A DNA stretch of 64,000 nt from Pseudooceanicola marinus (GTDB lineage Bacteria; Pseudomonadota; Alphaproteobacteria; Rhodobacterales; Rhodobacteraceae), in NCBI RefSeq assembly GCF_020177265.1, contig NZ_JAIVMC010000007.1, positions 248,001 to 312,000 of the forward strand, given 5' to 3'. Shown here one piece after another: positions 52,570-64,000 of this stretch. Every line of letters begins with the position of its first letter. Position 1 is the stretch's first letter. The notes below the pieces were generated by a model. The model did no database searches and was not told the DNA's origin. It saw only the letters and a list, made by a program, of their open reading frames with translations. The position numbers were made by a program, and so were the translations under genes.

Positions 52570-52736
52570 CGACTTCTCCGCCTATCGCTTGTCACATCTG
52601 CGTTTCGCGCGTAGCGGAGCGGGACCGCCGTTGCAAGCGCGGGGGTGGAATGGACCCTTGCGGCGGGGCGCCCGCGCCGCTAGCAAAGGAAGCTGCCCGA
52701 GCAGGGGACCGCGCAGAAAAACAGGAGGCGACAGCC

Positions 52737-53003
52737 ATGATGGACGACGAAGACGTCAAGTCCGACAACTACCGTGTGACCGCAGGCGAGCTGCGCCAGT
52801 TCATCGAACGCTTCGAGCGCCTCGATGCCGAGAAGAAGGACCTGGCGGACCAGCAGAAAGAGGTCATGGCAGAGGCAAAGGGCCGGGGCTACGACGTGAA
52901 GGTCCTGCGCAAGCTGATCGCCCTGCGCAAGCGCGAGCCCGACGACATCGCCGAGGAAGAGGCGGTTCTGGAAATGTACAAGGAAGCGCTCGGCATGCAC
53001 TGA
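52737..53003 (+). CDS. gapR: GapR nucleoid-associated protein (DUF2312), chromosomal copy
   Basis: 88 aa. The DUF2312 sequence TAGELRQFIERFERLDAEKK then IADQQ-like LADQQKEVMAEAKGRGYDVK and LIALRKREPDDIAEEEAVL is complete. GapR of Caulobacter is an essential protein that clamps overtwisted DNA ahead of replication forks and aids topoisomerases. AGGAGG precedes the ATG. A second copy lies in the prophage element 5 kb away, on the opposite strand, about 86% identical over the core and sharing a 50-bp identical stretch. Confidence 0.93.
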   Translation: MMDDEDVKSDNYRVTAGELRQFIERFERLDAEKKDLADQQKEVMAEAKGRGYDVKVLRKLIALRKREPDDIAEEEAVLEMYKEALGMH

Positions 53004-55816: not shown

Positions 55817-55892
55817 GCCCCTATAGCTCAGCTGGTAGAGCAACTGATTTGTAATCAGTAGGTCCGCGGTTCGAGTCCGTGTGGGGGCACCA
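55817..55892 (+). tRNA. tRNA-Thr (anticodon UGU), prophage attachment site
   Basis: 76 nt including an encoded CCA. The acceptor stem GCCCCTA pairs with TGGGGGC, allowing one T-T mismatch region by G:T pairing at the end. The anticodon arm ACTGA-TTTGTAA-TCAGT places TGT. TTCGAGTCC is the T loop. The integrase gene begins 72 bp downstream and points toward this tRNA, so its 3' end is the likely attachment site. Confidence 0.95.
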
Positions 55893-55963: not shown

Positions 55964-57202
55964 TCACTGCGTGTTTCTGAGCTTAACGACCTTTGCGATG
56001 GATTCGTCTCGGCCGCGGGCATAGCGGTCGGTGGTTGTCACGTTCAGATGCTGCCCCGCGTCGCGCAGAATGTAGGGGTCAGCGCCGAGGTTCTTCGCCT
56101 CGGTCAGGGCGCCCGCGCGGGTGTCCATCACAGTCAAATTCTTGGGCAGTCCAAGGTCATCACGGATTCTGCGGAACGCTTGGCTCCAGCCATAGACCGT
56201 GTAGGGCATGCCAGTGCGCTCGCCTGTGATGACCGGACCGATGCGACCACGTTGCGACAGGATGAAAAGCCTGGCGCGGAGCTCTGGGACATCTGTCAGG
56301 CCGAAGCGGATCGGGTCCGGCATCGAGCGTGCAGTCTTTGAGATGACCTTCGAGAAACCTGACAGATCTTCATCGAACATGTCCCATGTGAGACCGTCCT
56401 GCCATCTTTCGTAGGCGTCGGGCAGAAGGCGCTGCCGCCGATTGCGTGAGAGCTTGCGGACGATGCCGCCGGCATCGGGAGCGCAGGGGAGCCACTGGCC
56501 CCGAACGTCGACAGAGCGCAGGCAGAAGACCCACTGGATCAGCAAGCCGGTCGCGAAGGCGAACATGCCCCTTGCGTCGGCCTCGTCCACAACGGCCCGA
56601 ATTTGTTCGCGCGTCGGAGTGACCGAGCGTCGGGGCGGGGTCTGAAACCGCATGTCGCGGAGTATGTCCGAAACCTCGTGCGCCGGAGCGTACTTCAGCA
56701 TCTTGCCGTATTTGGCCACCGCGCGAAGCCGCTCGAACATGCGATGGATATAGGACGTGTTGCGGCCCTTGGCTTTCATGCCGTCACGCAGATCGCAGAT
56801 GGTGGTATAGTCCGTGGCGCCGATCGCGACCCTGCCTATGGCCGCGTCCCAGCGATCCAGGATCCAAATATAGTTTGTCCGGGTGTTTTCCTTGACCCCG
56901 TGGATCGGGCTATGGCGGTCGGTCTTGTAGCGGTGGATAAGCCATCCCCAAGTGCCGGGCTCGCGCGTTTCAATGTTTGCGCCGTAGTATGCTAGCATCT
57001 GGCGAGTCAGCTCGCGTGCCTCGTGCGCGCGCAAGAGATCCTGACCGTCGCCTTCCTCTCCGGTGAGGCGGATCGAGGTCTTTGGGTATCCCATTTTTCG
57101 AAACTTGGGGGAGGGCTTCCAGTAGTAATACTGCCTCCCCTTGCTCAGACCCGGGGCGTAAGACGGATCCGATCCGTCCCAGAGGGCGTCCTTGTAGGCC
57201 AT
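55964..57202 (-). CDS. Tyrosine recombinase (phage integrase)
   Basis: 412 aa. The catalytic residues fit the tyrosine recombinase set: Arg229 in WVFCLRSVDVRG, Arg362 in VMDTRAGALTEA, His385 in DAGQHLNVTT, and nucleophile Tyr394 in TDRYARG. The arm/core-binding half occupies about residues 60-190. The first catalytic box keeps Arg but the usual HxxR is DTR, so the His is replaced. AGGAC precedes the ATG. It lies next to tRNA-Thr and is the last gene of the leftward operon, reading toward the tRNA. It catalyses element integration and excision. Confidence 0.93.
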   Translation of the reverse strand: MAYKDALWDGSDPSYAPGLSKGRQYYYWKPSPKFRKMGYPKTSIRLTGEEGDGQDLLRAHEARELTRQMLAYYGANIETREPGTWGWLIHRYKTDRHSPIHGVKENTRTNYIWILDRWDAAIGRVAIGATDYTTICDLRDGMKAKGRNTSYIHRMFERLRAVAKYGKMLKYAPAHEVSDILRDMRFQTPPRRSVTPTREQIRAVVDEADARGMFAFATGLLIQWVFCLRSVDVRGQWLPCAPDAGGIVRKLSRNRRQRLLPDAYERWQDGLTWDMFDEDLSGFSKVISKTARSMPDPIRFGLTDVPELRARLFILSQRGRIGPVITGERTGMPYTVYGWSQAFRRIRDDLGLPKNLTVMDTRAGALTEAKNLGADPYILRDAGQHLNVTTTDRYARGRDESIAKVVKLRNTQ

Positions 57203-57935: not shown

Positions 57936-58288
57936 CAGCGGGCCTCCCGGGACAGTGCCAGCCCGCAGAGGGCGGGCAGCAGGGCGAGGGTGGCCAGCCC
58001 GGTGCAGGTGGCCATGGTGAGGAGGTTGGTGGCGTCGGTCTCGCGCCCGAAGAGCCAGCCGGAGAAGGCGGGGGCGGCCATGATGTAGGGCGCCCAGGGG
58101 CGGGCGGCGCGCAGGAGGCGGAGCATGTGGGCGCTGTCGCGGGTCATCAGGGCCAGCGCCACGGCTTCACCGCTGCAAACAACCGCCGCCAGCAGCAAGG
58201 CGGGATTGCCGGTGAGGGCGAAGGTTGCCGCAGTCATGGCGCTGAGGCTCGGCGCGAGGAGGATGGGAGAGAAGATTAGCCAGCGCAT
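57935..58288 (-). CDS. Prophage membrane protein of unknown function
   Basis: 117 aa. Three or four hydrophobic segments are visible (MRWLIFSPILLAPSLSAMTA, ALLLAAVVCSGEAVALALM, ATCTGLATLALLPALCGLAL). It overlaps the GapR-like gene at TGATG and the methyltransferase fragment by one base. It is embedded in the leftward operon between DNA-metabolism genes. No family is recognised. It could be a superinfection-exclusion type or other envelope protein, but this is a guess. Confidence 0.7.
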   Translation of the reverse strand: MRWLIFSPILLAPSLSAMTAATFALTGNPALLLAAVVCSGEAVALALMTRDSAHMLRLLRAARPWAPYIMAAPAFSGWLFGRETDATNLLTMATCTGLATLALLPALCGLALSREAR

Positions 58289-58608
58289 CAGCCCATCCCC
58301 ATGGCGTCTTTGTACATCTGCAGCACCGCCTCTTCCTCGGCGATGTCGTCGGGCTCGCGCTTGCGCAGGGCGATGAGGAGCCTCAAGACCCTCACGTCGT
58401 ATCCGCGCCCCTTGGCCTCGGCCATCACCTCTTTCTGCTGGTCCGCGATGCCCTTCTTCTCCGCCGCGAGCCGCTCGAAGCGTTCGATGAAGCTCCGCAG
58501 TTCTCCCGCTGCCACGCGGAAGGCGCCGTCACGGACTTCGCGATCCGCGTCTGTTTCCTTGAGGCCGGCATCCTCCTTGGACGCCTTGGGGAAGCCCATG
58601 TCCTTCAT
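58288..58608 (-). CDS. GapR (DUF2312) paralogue encoded by the prophage
   Basis: 106 aa. The whole DUF2312 core is present: AAGELRSFIERFERLAAEKK, ADQQKEVMAEAKGRGYDVR and LIALRKREPDDIAEEEAVLQ. An N-terminal extension of about 25 residues precedes it. Over the shared 74 residues it differs from the chromosomal copy (52737-53003) at about 10 positions and shares a 50-bp identical DNA stretch (58325-58374 here). It overlaps the downstream membrane protein gene and lies 12 bp after the clamp gene. It may help phage replication by handling overtwisted DNA. Confidence 0.92.
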   Translation of the reverse strand: MKDMGFPKASKEDAGLKETDADREVRDGAFRVAAGELRSFIERFERLAAEKKGIADQQKEVMAEAKGRGYDVRVLRLLIALRKREPDDIAEEEAVLQMYKDAMGMG

Positions 58609-58620
58609 GATCCGTTCCCC

Positions 58621-59835
58621 TCAGTCGCGCATCGGCATGAGAACCCAGAGCGCATCGGGGTCCTCGGTGACGATGCGGGCGGGCTCTCCGCGCCCGGCGC
58701 TGGAGAGGGTGAAGGCCGGGGCGATCCGGGCGAACTCGGACAGCAGCGCCAGGCTGTAGGTTGCCGTCTGGCCTTCCCGCTCCGTATGGCCCTGCAGGGC
58801 GATGCTCAGATCAACGCCATCGGGCATGCTGAGCGACATGCGTCCGGCGCCGGGATCCAGCCGCAGGGGCAGGCTGCGCCCGTAGCAGGTCGCACTGGCG
58901 ATGGTGCGCAGGCGGCTCAGGGCGCTGGCCGACAGGTGGGCGGTGAAGGCGTCGGAGGCCGGCGGCGTGACCCGGGTGTAATCCGGATAGGTGCCGTCGA
59001 TCCCCTGGATCACCAGGCGCAGCCCGGGCGCCGTCACCATCATGTGGCGCGCATCAGCAGCGAAGGTCAGCGGGGCATTCCCTGCCTTACGCGCGATCGC
59101 GATCAGCAGATCGACGGCGCGGACCGGGACGATGAGGCCGTCGGGGCGGTCGGTCGCCTTGCTGCCGTCGGCGCGCGGCCCCTCGATAAAGCGCGCCGGC
59201 TCATCGCAGTCGATGATGGCCATGCGGTGGCCATCGGTAGACACGGCCCGCAGGGTGCCCGCGTCCGGCTTTGTCGTCAGGAAGGTGCCGTTGAGATAAT
59301 AGCGGGTCTCTTCGCGGCTGACGCAGGACCGGCCCAGATCGAAGAGCCGCAGCGCCTGCGCACCCGAAAGCGTGAACGCGCCCGCGCCGGGCCCTCCCAC
59401 GGGCTCCAGATCCGTGAAGGGCTGGGGGAAGTCCTCGGGAGGGATGCTCAGCTGCAGCGTGACCTGGATCTCGCCGTCGGAGAGGCGGACGCGGTCATGG
59501 TCCTCGCCACTCATATGGGTGATCGTGACGGGCCCCCGGGCGGCCCGCAGGAAACCGGCCAGCGCCCGATGCGACATCACCAGATCCGCGCGCCCGATGG
59601 TCTGCGCCTCCAAGTCCAGCGCCAGGGTCATCTTGAGGTCGGTGGCCTCCAGTGAAACCTGGCCGCCCTTGAACCGGGTCCGCACGCAGCCCAGGGCCGG
59701 GATCGTGTTCCGGCGCTCGATCACGCGAGGCAACCGGTTGGCCGCCAGCCGAAGCTCGGCAAGGGCGACGGTGGCGCTCGGGCCGTCGGAGATCTCCGGG
59801 GCAGGCGCGGCGGCGCGGGGCATCTGGTGCAACAT
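58621..59835 (-). CDS. DNA polymerase III beta (sliding clamp) homologue on the prophage
   Basis: 404 aa, slightly longer than typical DnaN (about 370). Three clamp domains can be traced: ALAELRLAANRLPRVIERRN near residue 25, CVSREETRYYLNGTFLTT near 170 (the central DnaN motif), STDGHRMAIIDCDEP near 205, IQGIDGTYPDYTRV near 290 and the C-terminal WVLMPMRD. AAAGGACCTGCC precedes the ATG. Sliding clamps tether polymerase to DNA; phage-encoded ones are uncommon. It heads the dense part of the leftward operon, followed by GapR. No polymerase is seen in the window. Confidence 0.9.
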   Translation of the reverse strand: MLHQMPRAAAPAPEISDGPSATVALAELRLAANRLPRVIERRNTIPALGCVRTRFKGGQVSLEATDLKMTLALDLEAQTIGRADLVMSHRALAGFLRAARGPVTITHMSGEDHDRVRLSDGEIQVTLQLSIPPEDFPQPFTDLEPVGGPGAGAFTLSGAQALRLFDLGRSCVSREETRYYLNGTFLTTKPDAGTLRAVSTDGHRMAIIDCDEPARFIEGPRADGSKATDRPDGLIVPVRAVDLLIAIARKAGNAPLTFAADARHMMVTAPGLRLVIQGIDGTYPDYTRVTPPASDAFTAHLSASALSRLRTIASATCYGRSLPLRLDPGAGRMSLSMPDGVDLSIALQGHTEREGQTATYSLALLSEFARIAPAFTLSSAGRGEPARIVTEDPDALWVLMPMRD

Positions 59836-61028: not shown

Positions 61029-61337
61029 CTACTCGCTGGCTTTTAGGGCCGCGTCCGCCAGCTTCGCCTGCACGCTTGGGTGAAGGTGGGCAAAGTCGCC
61101 GTGGAAGAGGAAATTGAAGTCAATGCCGTGAGCCCGGTAAAAATACCTTGCAACCGAGATGGATGGCGCGCCTCGGGCCTCCTGGGAGTGGTACGTCTGC
61201 TTTGCCAGGCCAACTGCATCGGCGACTTCCTTCTGGGTGAGGCCAGTCGATAGTCGGGCTGCAATTAGGCGCAGGCGAAGTGCGTCGTTGGACGTGTCGC
61301 CTAGCAGGAAGATCTTTTCGAGCTCTTCGTGTGTCAT
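61029..61337 (-). CDS. XRE-type phage repressor (CI-like, no protease domain)
   Basis: 102 aa. The helix-turn-helix at about residues 20-75 includes LSTGLTQKEVADAVGLAKQT and a second half IDFNFLFHGD. There is no C-terminal LexA/S24 peptidase domain, so RecA-driven self-cleavage is not expected. No Shine-Dalgarno sequence is seen before the ATG (ACATGCGGC), so the message may be leaderless, as for lambda cI. It is divergent from a Cro-like gene, with two operator copies between them. It probably maintains lysogeny. Confidence 0.85.
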   Translation of the reverse strand: MTHEELEKIFLLGDTSNDALRLRLIAARLSTGLTQKEVADAVGLAKQTYHSQEARGAPSISVARYFYRAHGIDFNFLFHGDFAHLHPSVQAKLADAALKASE

Positions 61338-61426: not shown

Positions 61427-61675
61427 ATGAGTTATGCATCCCGAGAACTGATCCGGGATCTCGGTGGGTATCGTACCGTAGCGATCCGGCTGGGGATTTC
61501 GGCGAACACACTTCATAGCCACATGATGGCGGCTGCTTTCCCAGCGAAGTTCTTCGTGGCGCTTCGCGCCCTTGCGGTTGAGCAAGGGCTGCCAGAGCCA
61601 TCCCAAGAGCTCTTCTCTTTTGTTGATCTGCGCGGTGAGAAACTCGGAATTGATGGTGAAGGGGATGCCGCATGA
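61427..61675 (+). CDS. Cro-like/YdaS-like small regulator
   Basis: 82 aa. DLGGYRTVAIRLGISANTLH is a helix-turn-helix, and the C-terminal FPAKFFVALRALAVEQGL pattern is typical of Cro-like phage proteins that contact the repressor operators. It begins 14 bp after the perfect operator and lacks a clear ribosome binding site, suggesting leaderless translation. First gene of the rightward arm. Confidence 0.8.
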   Translation: MSYASRELIRDLGGYRTVAIRLGISANTLHSHMMAAAFPAKFFVALRALAVEQGLPEPSQELFSFVDLRGEKLGIDGEGDAA

Positions 61676-61774
61676 CGTGCTCATCCCTCTTTGTTTCCGA
61701 TCCTTTCGATATCCCTTTCCATGCTCCGGTTATGCCGAGGGCTTTGTCGACCTTCCAGAAAACGGGGTTTCGCG

Positions 61775-62194
61775 ATGAGCGGTGAGATCGCGGTGTACCA
61801 GGGGCCCGCCGTGCGGGCGCTGTTCAAGCAGCTGGTGCGGGACTTCGGCGGCGTGGATGCCGCGGCGGCCCTGCTGGGCTGTGCCAAGGGCACGATCTCG
61901 CGCGAGGTGAACGGCGGGCTGCCGGTCTCGATCGCGCATTTCTGCGGGCTTGAGGATGCGCTGGAGCGCTTTCCGATCACCTCGATGCTGGCCGACCGCC
62001 GGGCGGCCCGCCATGTCCGGCAGGAGGTCAATGACCTGGTGCTGCGTGTGGTGGCCGAGAATGGCGACGTGTCCAACGCCGCCGTTGGCCTGCTCTGCGC
62101 CGGCGATGCCGAGGGCGTCATGAAAGAGCTGCGCGAGTCCATCGCGGCTTCGCAGCAGCTGCTGGCCCGCCTCGAAGATGAGGCCGCCGCATGA
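61775..62194 (+). CDS. CII-like phage regulatory protein
   Basis: 139 aa from the ATG at 61775 (MSGEIAVYQGPAVRALFKQL). The N-terminal HTH includes VRDFGGVDAAAALLGCAKGT, resembling the CP76/CII-type phage regulatory fold, and a C-terminal helix pair (VMKELRESIAASQQLLARLE) could oligomerise. It follows the Cro-like gene after 99 bp and ends in an ATGA overlap with a possible next gene. Regulatory role inferred from fold and position. Confidence 0.75.
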   Translation: MSGEIAVYQGPAVRALFKQLVRDFGGVDAAAALLGCAKGTISREVNGGLPVSIAHFCGLEDALERFPITSMLADRRAARHVRQEVNDLVLRVVAENGDVSNAAVGLLCAGDAEGVMKELRESIAASQQLLARLEDEAAA

Positions 62195-62556
62195 GCTGCG
62201 CCCTCACATGCCCCTCCCGCCGACGGGCGGGCGATTGTCGTGGGGAGGGCGCTATCGTTGGCGGTGCGCTCCCCGCGCCGATCACCTTTCTTTCCAACCC
62301 CTCACGGACCCCGGCACAGGTGCCGGGTCGTGCGGAGCGCCGCCTGTCGGGCAGGGCAGGGCGCTCCCAGGCGCGGAGGGCCCATGTCCTCCAGTCCCTC
62401 CGCGCCGCCCGTTTCCCCGGACCTTGTCTGGCCGCCCCGCGGGACCGCGCGGCCGTCCGGGGCGTCGCGGTCCCGATCTGTCCGTCCCCGACTTGGGGCG
62501 CGTCCCTCCCGGCGCGCCCCGCCTTTTCCCTGGAGGGTTCCGCATGGACATCGTGA
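62191..62556 (+). CDS. Possible Arg/Pro-rich prophage protein (low support)
   Basis: 121 aa beginning at an ATGA overlap with the CII-like gene and ending 13 bp into the next gene. The third-codon GC level is coding-like, but the protein is Arg/Pro/Ala rich (MSCALTCPSRRRAGDCRGEG) with no ribosome site of its own and no recognised family. Long open frames by chance are common at this GC content. A perfect hairpin CCCGGCAC-AG-GTGCCGGG at 62310-62327 lies inside it. Confidence 0.3.
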   Translation: MSCALTCPSRRRAGDCRGEGAIVGGALPAPITFLSNPSRTPAQVPGRAERRLSGRAGRSQARRAHVLQSLRAARFPGPCLAAPRDRAAVRGVAVPICPSPTWGASLPARPAFSLEGSAWTS

Positions 62557-63095
62557 CCGCAGAAGAGCGCCGTCTGATCGACGAGGCGCTGGAGCGTATC
62601 CCCGAGGAGAAGCGGCGCATCCCTGCAGGCGTCAGCGGCATGGACCGGGACTACGTCTGGGACCCGAAGACCCAGTCGATCGTCACCCGGAACGAGGCCT
62701 TCAAGGGCGGCTTCCGGACCATGCAGCGCGCGCAGGTGCCCACACTGGCAGACCGCCTGAAGGATCGCGAGATCGCCCAGGACATCAAGGATGGGCTGAG
62801 CATCAGCGAGATCATCCTGCTGCGCCACACGGCACGTCAGCGCATCCAGCGGGTGGCGCGCGAGGACGGGCTGGAGATCGCCCGGCCGAAGCCCGCGCCG
62901 CTGCGGGGCGGGCGGGAGAAGTCCGTCTCGGGCGATGACGAGGAAATCACCCGGAAGATCCTGGCCCTGGTCGATGGCCAGAGGGGACTGACCGAGATCG
63001 CCCGGCTGGCGGGCTGCCACAAGGATGCGGTGCGCCTGCGCCGGGATCGGCTGAAGCTCGATATCCCGGCAGCGAAGCGGAGGAAGGTGGCGTGA
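62544..63095 (+). CDS. Prophage HTH-containing protein
   Basis: 183 aa. Two helix-turn-helix-like stretches are visible, ISEIILLRHTARQRIQRVAR near residue 93 and LTEIARLAGCHKDAVRLRRD near residue 153, joined by a basic linker. TGGAGGGTTCCGC precedes the ATG. A regulatory or DNA-structure role is likely; it is not a recognised named family. It lies between the CII-like gene and the replication initiator-like gene. Confidence 0.75.
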   Translation: MDIVTAEERRLIDEALERIPEEKRRIPAGVSGMDRDYVWDPKTQSIVTRNEAFKGGFRTMQRAQVPTLADRLKDREIAQDIKDGLSISEIILLRHTARQRIQRVAREDGLEIARPKPAPLRGGREKSVSGDDEEITRKILALVDGQRGLTEIARLAGCHKDAVRLRRDRLKLDIPAAKRRKVA

Positions 63096-63443: not shown

Positions 63444-63521
63444 ATGACTGGACAGAAGAGGGCTCGGAACCGTGGTTCCGGGCGCGGAGACGTGTTGCCT
63501 GCGGGCAGGAGGGGACGATGA
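63444..63521 (+). CDS. Possible 25-aa basic leader peptide
   Basis: MTGQKRARNRGSGRGDVLPA plus GRRGR, very basic, with a strong GGAGGACAGG start site. Its stop overlaps the initiator ATG (ATGA), so it probably serves for translational coupling. May not be a functional protein. Confidence 0.45.
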   Translation: MTGQKRARNRGSGRGDVLPAGRRGR

Positions 63522-64000
63522 GCATTCCGGCGATGAACTGGGCCTTCGCGCAGCGGGGGCTGAAGCCTGCGACCAAGCTGGTGCTGGTCTGTCTGGCGGA
63601 TTGCCACAACGCGCATACGCGGCGCTGCGACCCCTCGCAGGAGACGCTGGCGGAGGAGTGCTGCATGAGCCGCTCGACGGTGAACGTGCACCTGAAGCTG
63701 CTGGAGGAGCAGGGGCTGATCCGGCGCGTGCAGCGCTCGGACAAGCGCACGCGTAAGCAGCTGTCGAGCCTCTACCTCCTGGGCTGCGACATGGAGGAGG
63801 CCCCCGCGGAGAGCGGCGAGAAACCCGTGTCCGAAATCCGGACACGGGAGACCGCAGGCGCCGAGGGAGCCGTGTCCGGAAACCGGACACGGGATCGCGC
63901 CAGCACGGGCCGGGGAGCCGTGTCCGAAAACCGGACACGGGACACAAGGGCAAGCCGTGTCCGGAAATCGGACACGGGGCAGGGCCGAGCCGTGTCCGGA
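63518..64000 (+). CDS. HTH replication initiator-like protein with embedded iterons, 3' part missing
   Basis: The first 161 codons are visible; it runs off the window end. Residues 1-90 form a HTH_36/MarR-like domain (ETLAEECCMSRSTVNVHLKL, LLEEQGLIRRVQRSDKR), like the N-termini of phage replication protein O and plasmid Rep proteins. From residue 103 the coding DNA consists of iterated inverted repeats, giving a protein pattern AVSGNRTRD and AVSENRTRD, with one repeat shifted in frame. AGGAGGGGACG precedes the ATG. Lambda O has iterons inside its own gene in the same place. Replication initiation is inferred. Confidence 0.7.
   Translation, partial: MSIPAMNWAFAQRGLKPATKLVLVCLADCHNAHTRRCDPSQETLAEECCMSRSTVNVHLKLLEEQGLIRRVQRSDKRTRKQLSSLYLLGCDMEEAPAESGEKPVSEIRTRETAGAEGAVSGNRTRDRASTGRGAVSENRTRDTRASRVRKSDTGQGRAVSG
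63824..64000 (+). repeat. Five iterated 23-bp inverted repeats inside the initiator gene
   Basis: Arms CCGTGTCCG and CGGACACGG separated by five bases (R-A-A-W-Y) occur at 63825-63847, 63870-63892, 63918-63940 and 63955-63977; a fifth begins at 63990 and is cut by the window end. All four complete copies have perfect arms; only the spacer varies. Starts are 45, 48, 37 and 35 bp apart. The third step breaks the reading frame and the fourth restores it, so DNA sequence rather than protein is conserved. Candidate origin iterons or operators. Confidence 0.9.

Follow-up and report, generated by a model that had tools for sequence, protein, structure and literature searches.

The replication initiator gene of an integrated phage-like element in Pseudooceanicola marinus very probably carries, in its central third, the origin of that element, built in the manner of the lambda origin. 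This reading, reached by sequence comparison, rests on a constraint on the DNA that runs through three reading frames, on covariation between the recognition helix of the protein and its sites, on the least stable element lying next to these sites, and on the lack of scattered operator copies. The window, the whole stretch of 64,000 nucleotides that was analysed (G000:C7:248001-312000), belongs to a genome of 4.55 Mb in 28 contigs (98.77% complete), and the initiator gene crosses its right edge; the contig continues beyond 64000 and was read in locus L002, in which a position equals the window position minus 62999. The completed gene encodes a product of 257 aa and is ordered as a winged helix, four palindromes, two half-sites, a fifth palindrome, GAACC units and a C-terminal tail (Table 1).

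Table 1. Coordinates of the initiator gene, its embedded sites and the neighbouring features (window positions unless a locus or contig is given)
Feature	Position	Strand	Basis
tRNA-Thr(TGT), probable integration site	55817..55892	+	ARAGORN
Tyrosine integrase	55964..57202	-	phrog_1 1.8e-18
GapR-like protein	58288..58608	-	PF10073 7.5e-30
DNA polymerase sliding-clamp paralogue	58621..59835	-	phrog_947 2.7e-38; PF02767 1.2e-8
cI-like repressor	61029..61337	-	phrog_2328 1.4e-7
Small protein, cro position	61427..61675	+	position; one below-cut-off match, YdaS_toxin E 0.099
Protein, cII position	61691..62194	+	weak Phage_CP76 match, E 0.0056, below cut-off
Protein upstream of initiator	62544..63095	+	phrog_2554 3e-6 (unknown function); HTH_47 E 0.0061, below cut-off
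O-like replication initiator gene	63518..64000, window-cut; whole = L002:519-1292 (G000:C7:311518-312291)	+	open frame, Pfam, PHROG
HTH_36 winged helix, aa 14-68	63557..63721	+	Pfam, AlphaFold2 model, covariation
Palindromic iteron 1, frame VSEIRTR	63825..63847	.	sequence scan
Palindromic iteron 2, frame VSGNRTR	63870..63892	.	sequence scan
Palindromic iteron 3, frame VSENRTR	63918..63940	.	sequence scan
Palindromic iteron 4, other frame (SRVRKSDTG)	63955..63977	.	sequence scan, frame test
Half-site (CCGTGTCCG), first of three units at 23-bp pitch	63990..63998	+	contig sequence; same spacing in relatives
Second half-site, 23 bp on	L002:1014-1022 (GTGTCCG from 1016), past window edge		
Fifth palindrome GTGTCCG-N6-CGGACAC, another 23 bp on	L002:1039-1058 = C7:312038-312057, past window edge		
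Three GAACC 11-mers	L002:1059, 1070, 1081, past window edge		

The N-terminal part of the initiator adopts a winged-helix arrangement in which aa 14-68 match HTH_36 (PF13730) at 53.7 bits against a curated cut-off of 25, so that the HTH domain which the sequence-only reading had placed ahead of the repeats, together with the HTH_36 search it had proposed, is borne out. The AlphaFold2 model (mean pLDDT 88) assigns the recognition helix to aa 52-64 (R52, S53, N56, V57), and columns 51, 52, 55 and 56 of the HTH profile correspond to residues 52, 53, 56 and 57 of this protein. Named protein relatives occur in P. marinus (96%), P. antarcticus (90%), Oceanicola sp. S124 (83%) and P. endophyticus (65%; Pseudooceanicola). 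Two PHROG groups annotated as 'replication initiation O-like' match the initiator (phrog_391, 5.7e-21; phrog_345, 1.2e-17), and both also match lambda O, phrog_391 through its other half. PF04492 (Phage_rep_O), which lambda O itself matches at 5.7e-36, is absent among the 19 Pfam families listed up to E 0.1 for the initiator, and a weak profile comparison of HTH_36 with the lambda O N-terminal domains, one side of it being a single sequence, gives a probability of 0.1%. Because Pfam places the protein in HTH_36 and not in Phage_rep_O, the statement that it works like lambda O is supported at the level of sequence, whereas the statement that it is lambda O by family is not; the earlier label of a lambda-O-like initiator accordingly keeps its intragenic-origin logic, through the comparative tests described below, and loses the family assignment.

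Matches to the winged-helix fold include DnaD (2v79) and a plasmid Rep-DNA complex (5kbj), none of them reaching E 0.001 or better, and the nearest solved structures, by sequence and by fold, are mostly MarR-type or other transcription regulators. The latter would suit an arrangement in which the palindromes are operators, the HTH protein repressing or timing its own gene while replication starts elsewhere, and intragenic protein binding can block transcription, which also counts in favour of this explanation. We nevertheless consider it unlikely, since PHROG annotates the protein's best matches as replication initiation proteins, the sites are intragenic and follow the HTH, and in many families a phased track of half-sites runs up to the gene's least stable element. 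The distribution of the sites across the genome argues in the same direction. Specifically, no other exact 7+5+7 palindrome is present elsewhere in the genome (98.77% complete), a single site with 1 mismatch occurs at C5:65009, and at a tolerance of up to 2 mismatches, hits to the reversed control pattern outnumber those to the palindrome itself (25 versus 19 per strand). The sequence-only reading had named repeats scattered as operators as the finding that would speak against it, and scans of the window and the genome return no other exact copy.

Within the gene, four perfect palindromes CCGTGTCCG-N5-CGGACACGG carry identical arms in 4/4 copies, as had been read at 63825, 63870, 63918 and 63955, and they provide the repeated inverted-repeat iterons inside the initiator gene that characterize a lambda-type origin. 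The unit at 63990, initially taken for a fifth palindrome cut by the window edge, is in the contig continuation a half-site (GTGTCCG, from L002:993) lacking a right arm; the count of at least five iterons therefore holds for the four perfect copies and not for this unit, and a fifth palindrome, with a 6-base spacer, lies past the window. Extension past 64000, as had been advised, recovers this palindrome together with the second half-site, the GAACC 11-mers and the C-terminal tail. When the gene is codon-aligned with four relatives, the most distant sharing 65% protein identity, the region from the half-sites to the GAACC end is nearly unchanged, while the linkers between palindromes vary and the palindromes are gained and lost.

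The four copies far exceed what composition or coding would provide. When up to 3 mismatches are allowed, 0.16 palindrome sites are expected in the window against the four perfect ones found. The exact 7+5+7 palindrome, present four times in the initiator gene, reaches a maximum of 1 copy in 5000 codon-order shuffles, and protein-keeping (synonymous) shuffles reach a maximum of 2, in 10 of 5000. GTGTCCG occurs in all three codon phases of the gene, and so do the three GAACC units; a palindrome site read in three codon frames indicates that the DNA, and not the protein, is conserved. This bears directly on the proposal that a repeated peptide, a VSENRTR-like linker, is what selection maintains and that the DNA palindromes are its by-product. 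Although three copies do share the frame VSE/GxRTR, and an EPxxEP peptide explains part of the GAACC signal, the reading of the same DNA in all three frames of one gene largely contradicts the proposal, and across families synonymous shuffling leaves repeated palindromes in 4-10 of 165 against 86 in the real genes, which reduces its probability almost to nothing. A role of the repeats as RNA hairpins in the transcript, through attenuation or mRNA structure, is scarcely more credible: as judged from the sequence, the transcript of each palindrome could fold into a stem of 9 bp closed by a 5-base loop, but neither the half-sites nor the GAACC units form inverted repeats, a search of L002:1-3000 gives no Rfam match at gathering score, and the copies keep their letters rather than only their pairing, these letters following the helix of the protein.

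Genomes, viral contigs and phage records, including 14 phage regions, were searched by protein similarity for homologous loci, and 505 profile hits resolve into 316 distinct genes, of which 300 have at least 200 nt after the HTH and fall into 165 clusters at 90% HTH identity, here called families; the family counts exclude the 107 loci (L190-L296) that were retrieved with the palindrome pattern. An array was called from an exact seed palindrome when at least 2 copies with no more than 2 mismatches each were present. With a spacer of 5, at least two copies of one palindrome occur in 86/165 families. Five shuffles of codon order leave 0-2 such families and five synonymous ones 4-10, and 2/154 upstream regions qualify. 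Two spacer-5 copies are missing in 36/104 near and 43/61 distant families (HMM E below and above 1e-30, respectively). Odd spacers are strongly enriched and even ones much less (spacer 4, 13/165 families), so the centre of the palindrome is usually a base; the fifth palindrome of the present clade, with its 6-base spacer, runs contrary to this rule. Taking the best of four odd spacers, an array is found in 108/165 families, a union that has no shuffle control of its own, and 57/165 families contain no repeated palindrome at any odd spacer tried. In 86 of the 108 array families the palindrome centres fall in two or three codon phases. A complementary scan of viral contigs with the pattern GTGTCCG-NAANN-CGGACAC retrieves 107 loci with 174 exact palindromes, 147 of which lie inside such an initiator gene, after the HTH; the remaining 27 lie outside such genes, 2 elsewhere in a locus that bears an initiator and 25 in loci without one.

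Upstream of the last palindrome, the half-sites follow a fixed pitch and a single orientation. Among the 88 array families that could be counted (20 of the 108 lack a consensus core and were dropped), 61 have a left half-site at exactly -23 bp relative to the last palindrome and 46 have one at -46 bp; these units are half-sites only in 60/61 and 46/46 cases, respectively. An opposite-orientation half-site alone is found at neither position in any of the 88 families. A pitch of 23 bp, not being divisible by three, necessarily shifts the reading frame, which again speaks for DNA as the conserved entity. Half-sites at -46 and -23 together with GAACC at +15 to +50 are all present in 44/88 families, and none of the three is present in 17/88.

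On the other side of the last palindrome lies the GAACC element. In the 103 array families used for position and stability counts (the others being too short), GAACC lies within 110 nt after the last palindrome in 92 and in at least two units in 58, whereas 0/105 upstream controls contain two; a unit sits at +23 in 59/103, with successive units mostly 12 or 11 bp apart. Tandem RAACC units are present in 99/165 families, 31 of these 99 using two or three codon phases, against 2-8 in ten codon-order shuffles, 27-45 in synonymous shuffles, 3/154 upstream regions and 2/165 on the reverse strand. As synonymous shuffles preserve RAACC in 27-45/165, part of the signal is the peptide EPxxEP. Codon choice separates the remainder from the peptide. 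Of the 59 families whose GAACC unit sits at +23, 57 were aligned and 2 use another frame. In the aligned families GTA encodes Val at +17 in 54/54 cases against 6/171 further along these genes, AGG or AGA encodes Arg at +20 in 48/48 against 42/374, and TTA or CTA encodes Leu at +29 in 24/24 against 10/361; at 33 conserved degenerate HTH positions, the commonest codon takes an average share of 0.53. GAACC elements or close variants occur in the SfV, cdtI, SI8, ZF40, V039C and BUCT708 genes, and RAACC units in the initiator genes of LASTA, Pavtok, PPF1 and Pam5.

The GAACC element coincides with the weakest part of the duplex. The least stable 36 bp of the gene fall on it in 70/103 families, with 5.7 expected, and A+T averages 0.535 at the element versus 0.384 further on, being higher in 87/101 families. 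In the present gene the least stable 36 bp begin at gene position 535 (rank 1/739), and the GAACC units occupy 541-573. An easily melted region thus lies beside the iterons, as in a lambda-type intragenic origin.

The palindromes differ between lineages, and their bases follow residues of the recognition helix. With site positions counted from the palindrome centre, Arg at column 51 (R52 here) goes with C at position 7 in 72/74 families, and Asn, Val, Ile, Pro, Ser, Ala or Asp at this column goes with G in 24/24. Other residues at column 51 also accompany C at position 7 (Lys 4/5, Glu 2/3, Leu 2/2), Lys and Leu being exceptions to the Arg-with-C code. At column 52, Arg is paired with C at position 5 in 12/12 families and Ser, Ala or Gly with G in 89/93; at column 56, Arg accompanies G at position 3 in 12/15, Asn or Thr accompanies T in 28/30, and Asp or Glu accompanies C in 22/32, while Val, which the present initiator has there, is found with any of C, T and G (C in 10/18) and is a further exception. 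The mutual information between column 51 and position 7 stands 0.68 bit above shuffles, against 0.25 for the best column outside the recognition helix, and the best-matching HTH column lies inside this helix for positions 3 to 7 and outside it for positions 2, 8, 9 and 10. Phylogenetic dependence was addressed with a tree built without columns 48-58. On the best tree, of 14 independent pairs that differ in Arg 51, an average of 9.5 change the same way and 1.0 the opposite way; the corresponding values for Arg 52 and Arg 56 are 5.9 and 0 of 8 pairs, and the same-way share is at most 0.33 in 35 control columns versus 0.68. When the sign test is confined to supported branches, 2-4 independent pairs are left, too few for significance. 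Collectively, the covariation strongly indicates that each initiator's recognition helix would read its own palindrome, an Arg in the second helix position going together with a C:G pair seven bases out from the centre.

In the lambda-type origin proposed here, initiator dimers would settle on the full palindromes, and the half-sites, all in the same orientation, would let the complex grow in one direction, up to the GAACC element. This element would then melt, and the replicative helicase could be loaded there, perhaps through the conserved C-terminal tail; that the tail contacts the helicase is a guess. Precedent for such an initiator mechanism in lambda is found in PMC7466680 and PMC5043065. 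The gene order of repressor, cro-position gene, cII-position gene and initiator suggests, by analogy, that transcription may run through the origin as it does in lambda.

The tail comprises 42 residues at or near the very C-terminus and is common to 83/165 families, whatever lies between it and the HTH. In this gene it maps to L002:1155-1289; its profile consensus is AFWAEKINSGGYVPASAISNRVADELLARGLVTEEQLRARGV, and it is kept in initiators whose middle parts differ. The possibility that it is a module of other proteins was rejected, as the matches listed, at least 8 in at least 7 of 60 genomes with up to 120 candidates taken per genome, all coincide by their coordinates with initiator genes. 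A whole-protein scan of viral contigs returned no match. In one genome, two initiator copies (L011 and L029) lie about 9.7 kb apart on a single contig (G014:C19), the second interrupted by unread bases.

The element itself probably begins at the tRNA-Thr. The left flank of this tRNA matches in 22/22 genomes of the genus (its own included) and reaches into the tRNA in 18. For the right end, no exact piece of at least 13 bases of the tRNA-Thr 3' end is found in L002, up to C7:330999. Copies of the tRNA-Thr 3' end lie about 8, 40 and 44 kb away in G017, G010 and G014, respectively, and tRNA-Thr(TGT) looks like an integration hot spot that may hold elements of differing size. In another genome with a 94% identical flank (G021), the tRNA-Thr is followed by a paralogous initiator with TCTCCA arms (L031) and by DNA that shares 75% identity with what lies downstream of the window's initiator. 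The sliding clamp (phrog_947) and GapR (PF10073) that had been ascribed to the element are confirmed, both between integrase and initiator. A second GapR gene (PF10073, 1e-31) is located at 52650-53000, left of the tRNA and outside the element; it is probably the host's own copy, the element's GapR being an extra one.

To the right of the initiator, the two downstream genes have 0 Pfam matches, and one of them matches phrog_9306 (unknown function). Of three frames tested to the right, one gives a weak tape-measure match (phrog_167, E 0.0078), one gives none and one is LysR-type. A 522-aa frame (L002:2978-4546) that follows the replication genes has weak matches only (SLATT_2, E 0.0098; phrog_167, E 0.0078) and is possibly cargo. 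Neither Pfam nor PHROG recognises a helicase or loader beside this initiator. Of the 14 phage regions, 4 (SI8, BUCT708, V039C and ZF40) have a gene for a DnaB-like helicase or a primase/helicase next to the initiator, and in the other 10 the annotation gives no helicase or loader beside it. The Sulfitobacter plasmid record NZ_CP136687 likewise has a DnaB-like helicase gene adjoining its initiator, which contains at least three GTCCCA units (22-bp pitch, counted by eye) and then GAACC at gene positions 400, 411 and 421. This 46-kb record (NZ_CP136687.1), with its initiator at L632:12754-13473, also carries phage terminase, portal and capsid genes, and the order of repeats and GAACC is similar; it may represent a phage-plasmid that depends on this type of origin.

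A broader reading, to which we assign an even chance, is that phages of Alpha- and Gammaproteobacteria and of one cyanobacterium share an intragenic origin grammar, consisting of lineage-specific palindromes with a helix-to-base code, a one-way 23-bp half-site track, and a constant GAACC element of 11/12-mers that would be read by a common factor rather than being merely A+T-rich. As the GAACC element stays constant while the palindromes change, such a grammar implies that something common must read it; as part of the same evenly balanced reading, that reader would be either the helicase machinery or a conserved surface on the initiator. If the grammar is true, initiator-origin pairs and element incompatibility would become predictable from sequence through the code. 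To our knowledge, the origins of most phages and prophages are not known, and the lambda-type reading itself supplies a testable sequence rule by which the origin is placed in a common gene that is often labelled 'helix-turn-helix domain protein'. The odd protein repeats VSENRTR, PCPEIGHG and REPVREP would be explained as DNA signals, and natural initiator-origin pairs of differing specificity would become useful for studying how initiators open DNA. This origin type is unusual in that sequence alone exposes its grammar so clearly.

Comparison with known systems places these features next to lambda, whose origin (NC_001416) likewise has iterons inside the initiator gene O, formed by inverted repeats with a short spacer (TCCCTC-N5-GAGGGA) at an annotated pitch of 20, 24 and 23 bp, with an A-rich region on the same side as here. 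Lambda O differs in belonging to PF04492 rather than HTH_36 and in its arms; positions 241-660 of gene O contain no GAACC, and no half-site track is annotated. In addition, the partner gene P adjoins O in lambda, whereas no such gene is recognised beside the present initiator. Among phages with related genes, SfV orf39 resembles it in its HTH_36 domain (44.1 bits), inverted repeats recur inside the cdtI, ZF40 and V039C genes, and SfV and cdtI share the GAACC-element variant AGAACCAGTCACTCTTTTGAACCAGTCAAAGAACC; SfV, cdtI, ZF40, V039C and SI8, whose genes are called 'replication protein' or HTH, differ in arms and spacings, and no origin is marked in the stretches shown.

According to the excerpted text of PMC8022706, the distantly related gene 18 initiators of P22 and Salmonella phage L are proposed to bind their own intragenic iterons, so that the likeness lies in lineage-specific iterons inside the initiator coding region; the difference is that these are likely origins of single phages, and the excerpts describe no helix-site code, half-site pitch or shared GAACC. 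The Stx phage origin, as described in PMC7466680, has six intragenic iterons, a dimeric O and an adjoining A+T-rich tract, with binding measured, and each single iteron is bound by any O protein tested. These Stx O proteins are relatives of lambda O, whereas the arms of HTH_36 initiators differ by lineage. Iteron plasmids and Gram-negative PICIs, as excerpted in PMC5043065 and PMC6092414, similarly place initiator-specific iterons beside an A+T-rich region, but the plasmid iterons are mostly direct repeats and those of PICIs lie 3' to the replication gene, whereas the present ones are inverted and intragenic. For P. yeei plasmids pYEE7/8, which encode HTH_36 replication proteins, PMC6209633 states in its excerpted part that cloned regions replicate in Alphaproteobacteria. 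As an experimental precedent they were set aside, because they are not among the 22 records listed by tblastn with the initiator; either they form another branch or they are absent from the sequences searched.

Searches of the open-licence literature, outside which most subscription papers and bioRxiv lie, turned up no description of the shared layout, specificity code, half-site pitch or GAACC element of HTH_36 initiators. The intragenic, lineage-specific iterons of lambda, P22, phage L and the Stx phages are already known. Set beside them, the initiator gene with its embedded sites is, as far as its sequence can tell, a new variant of the lambda-type origin.
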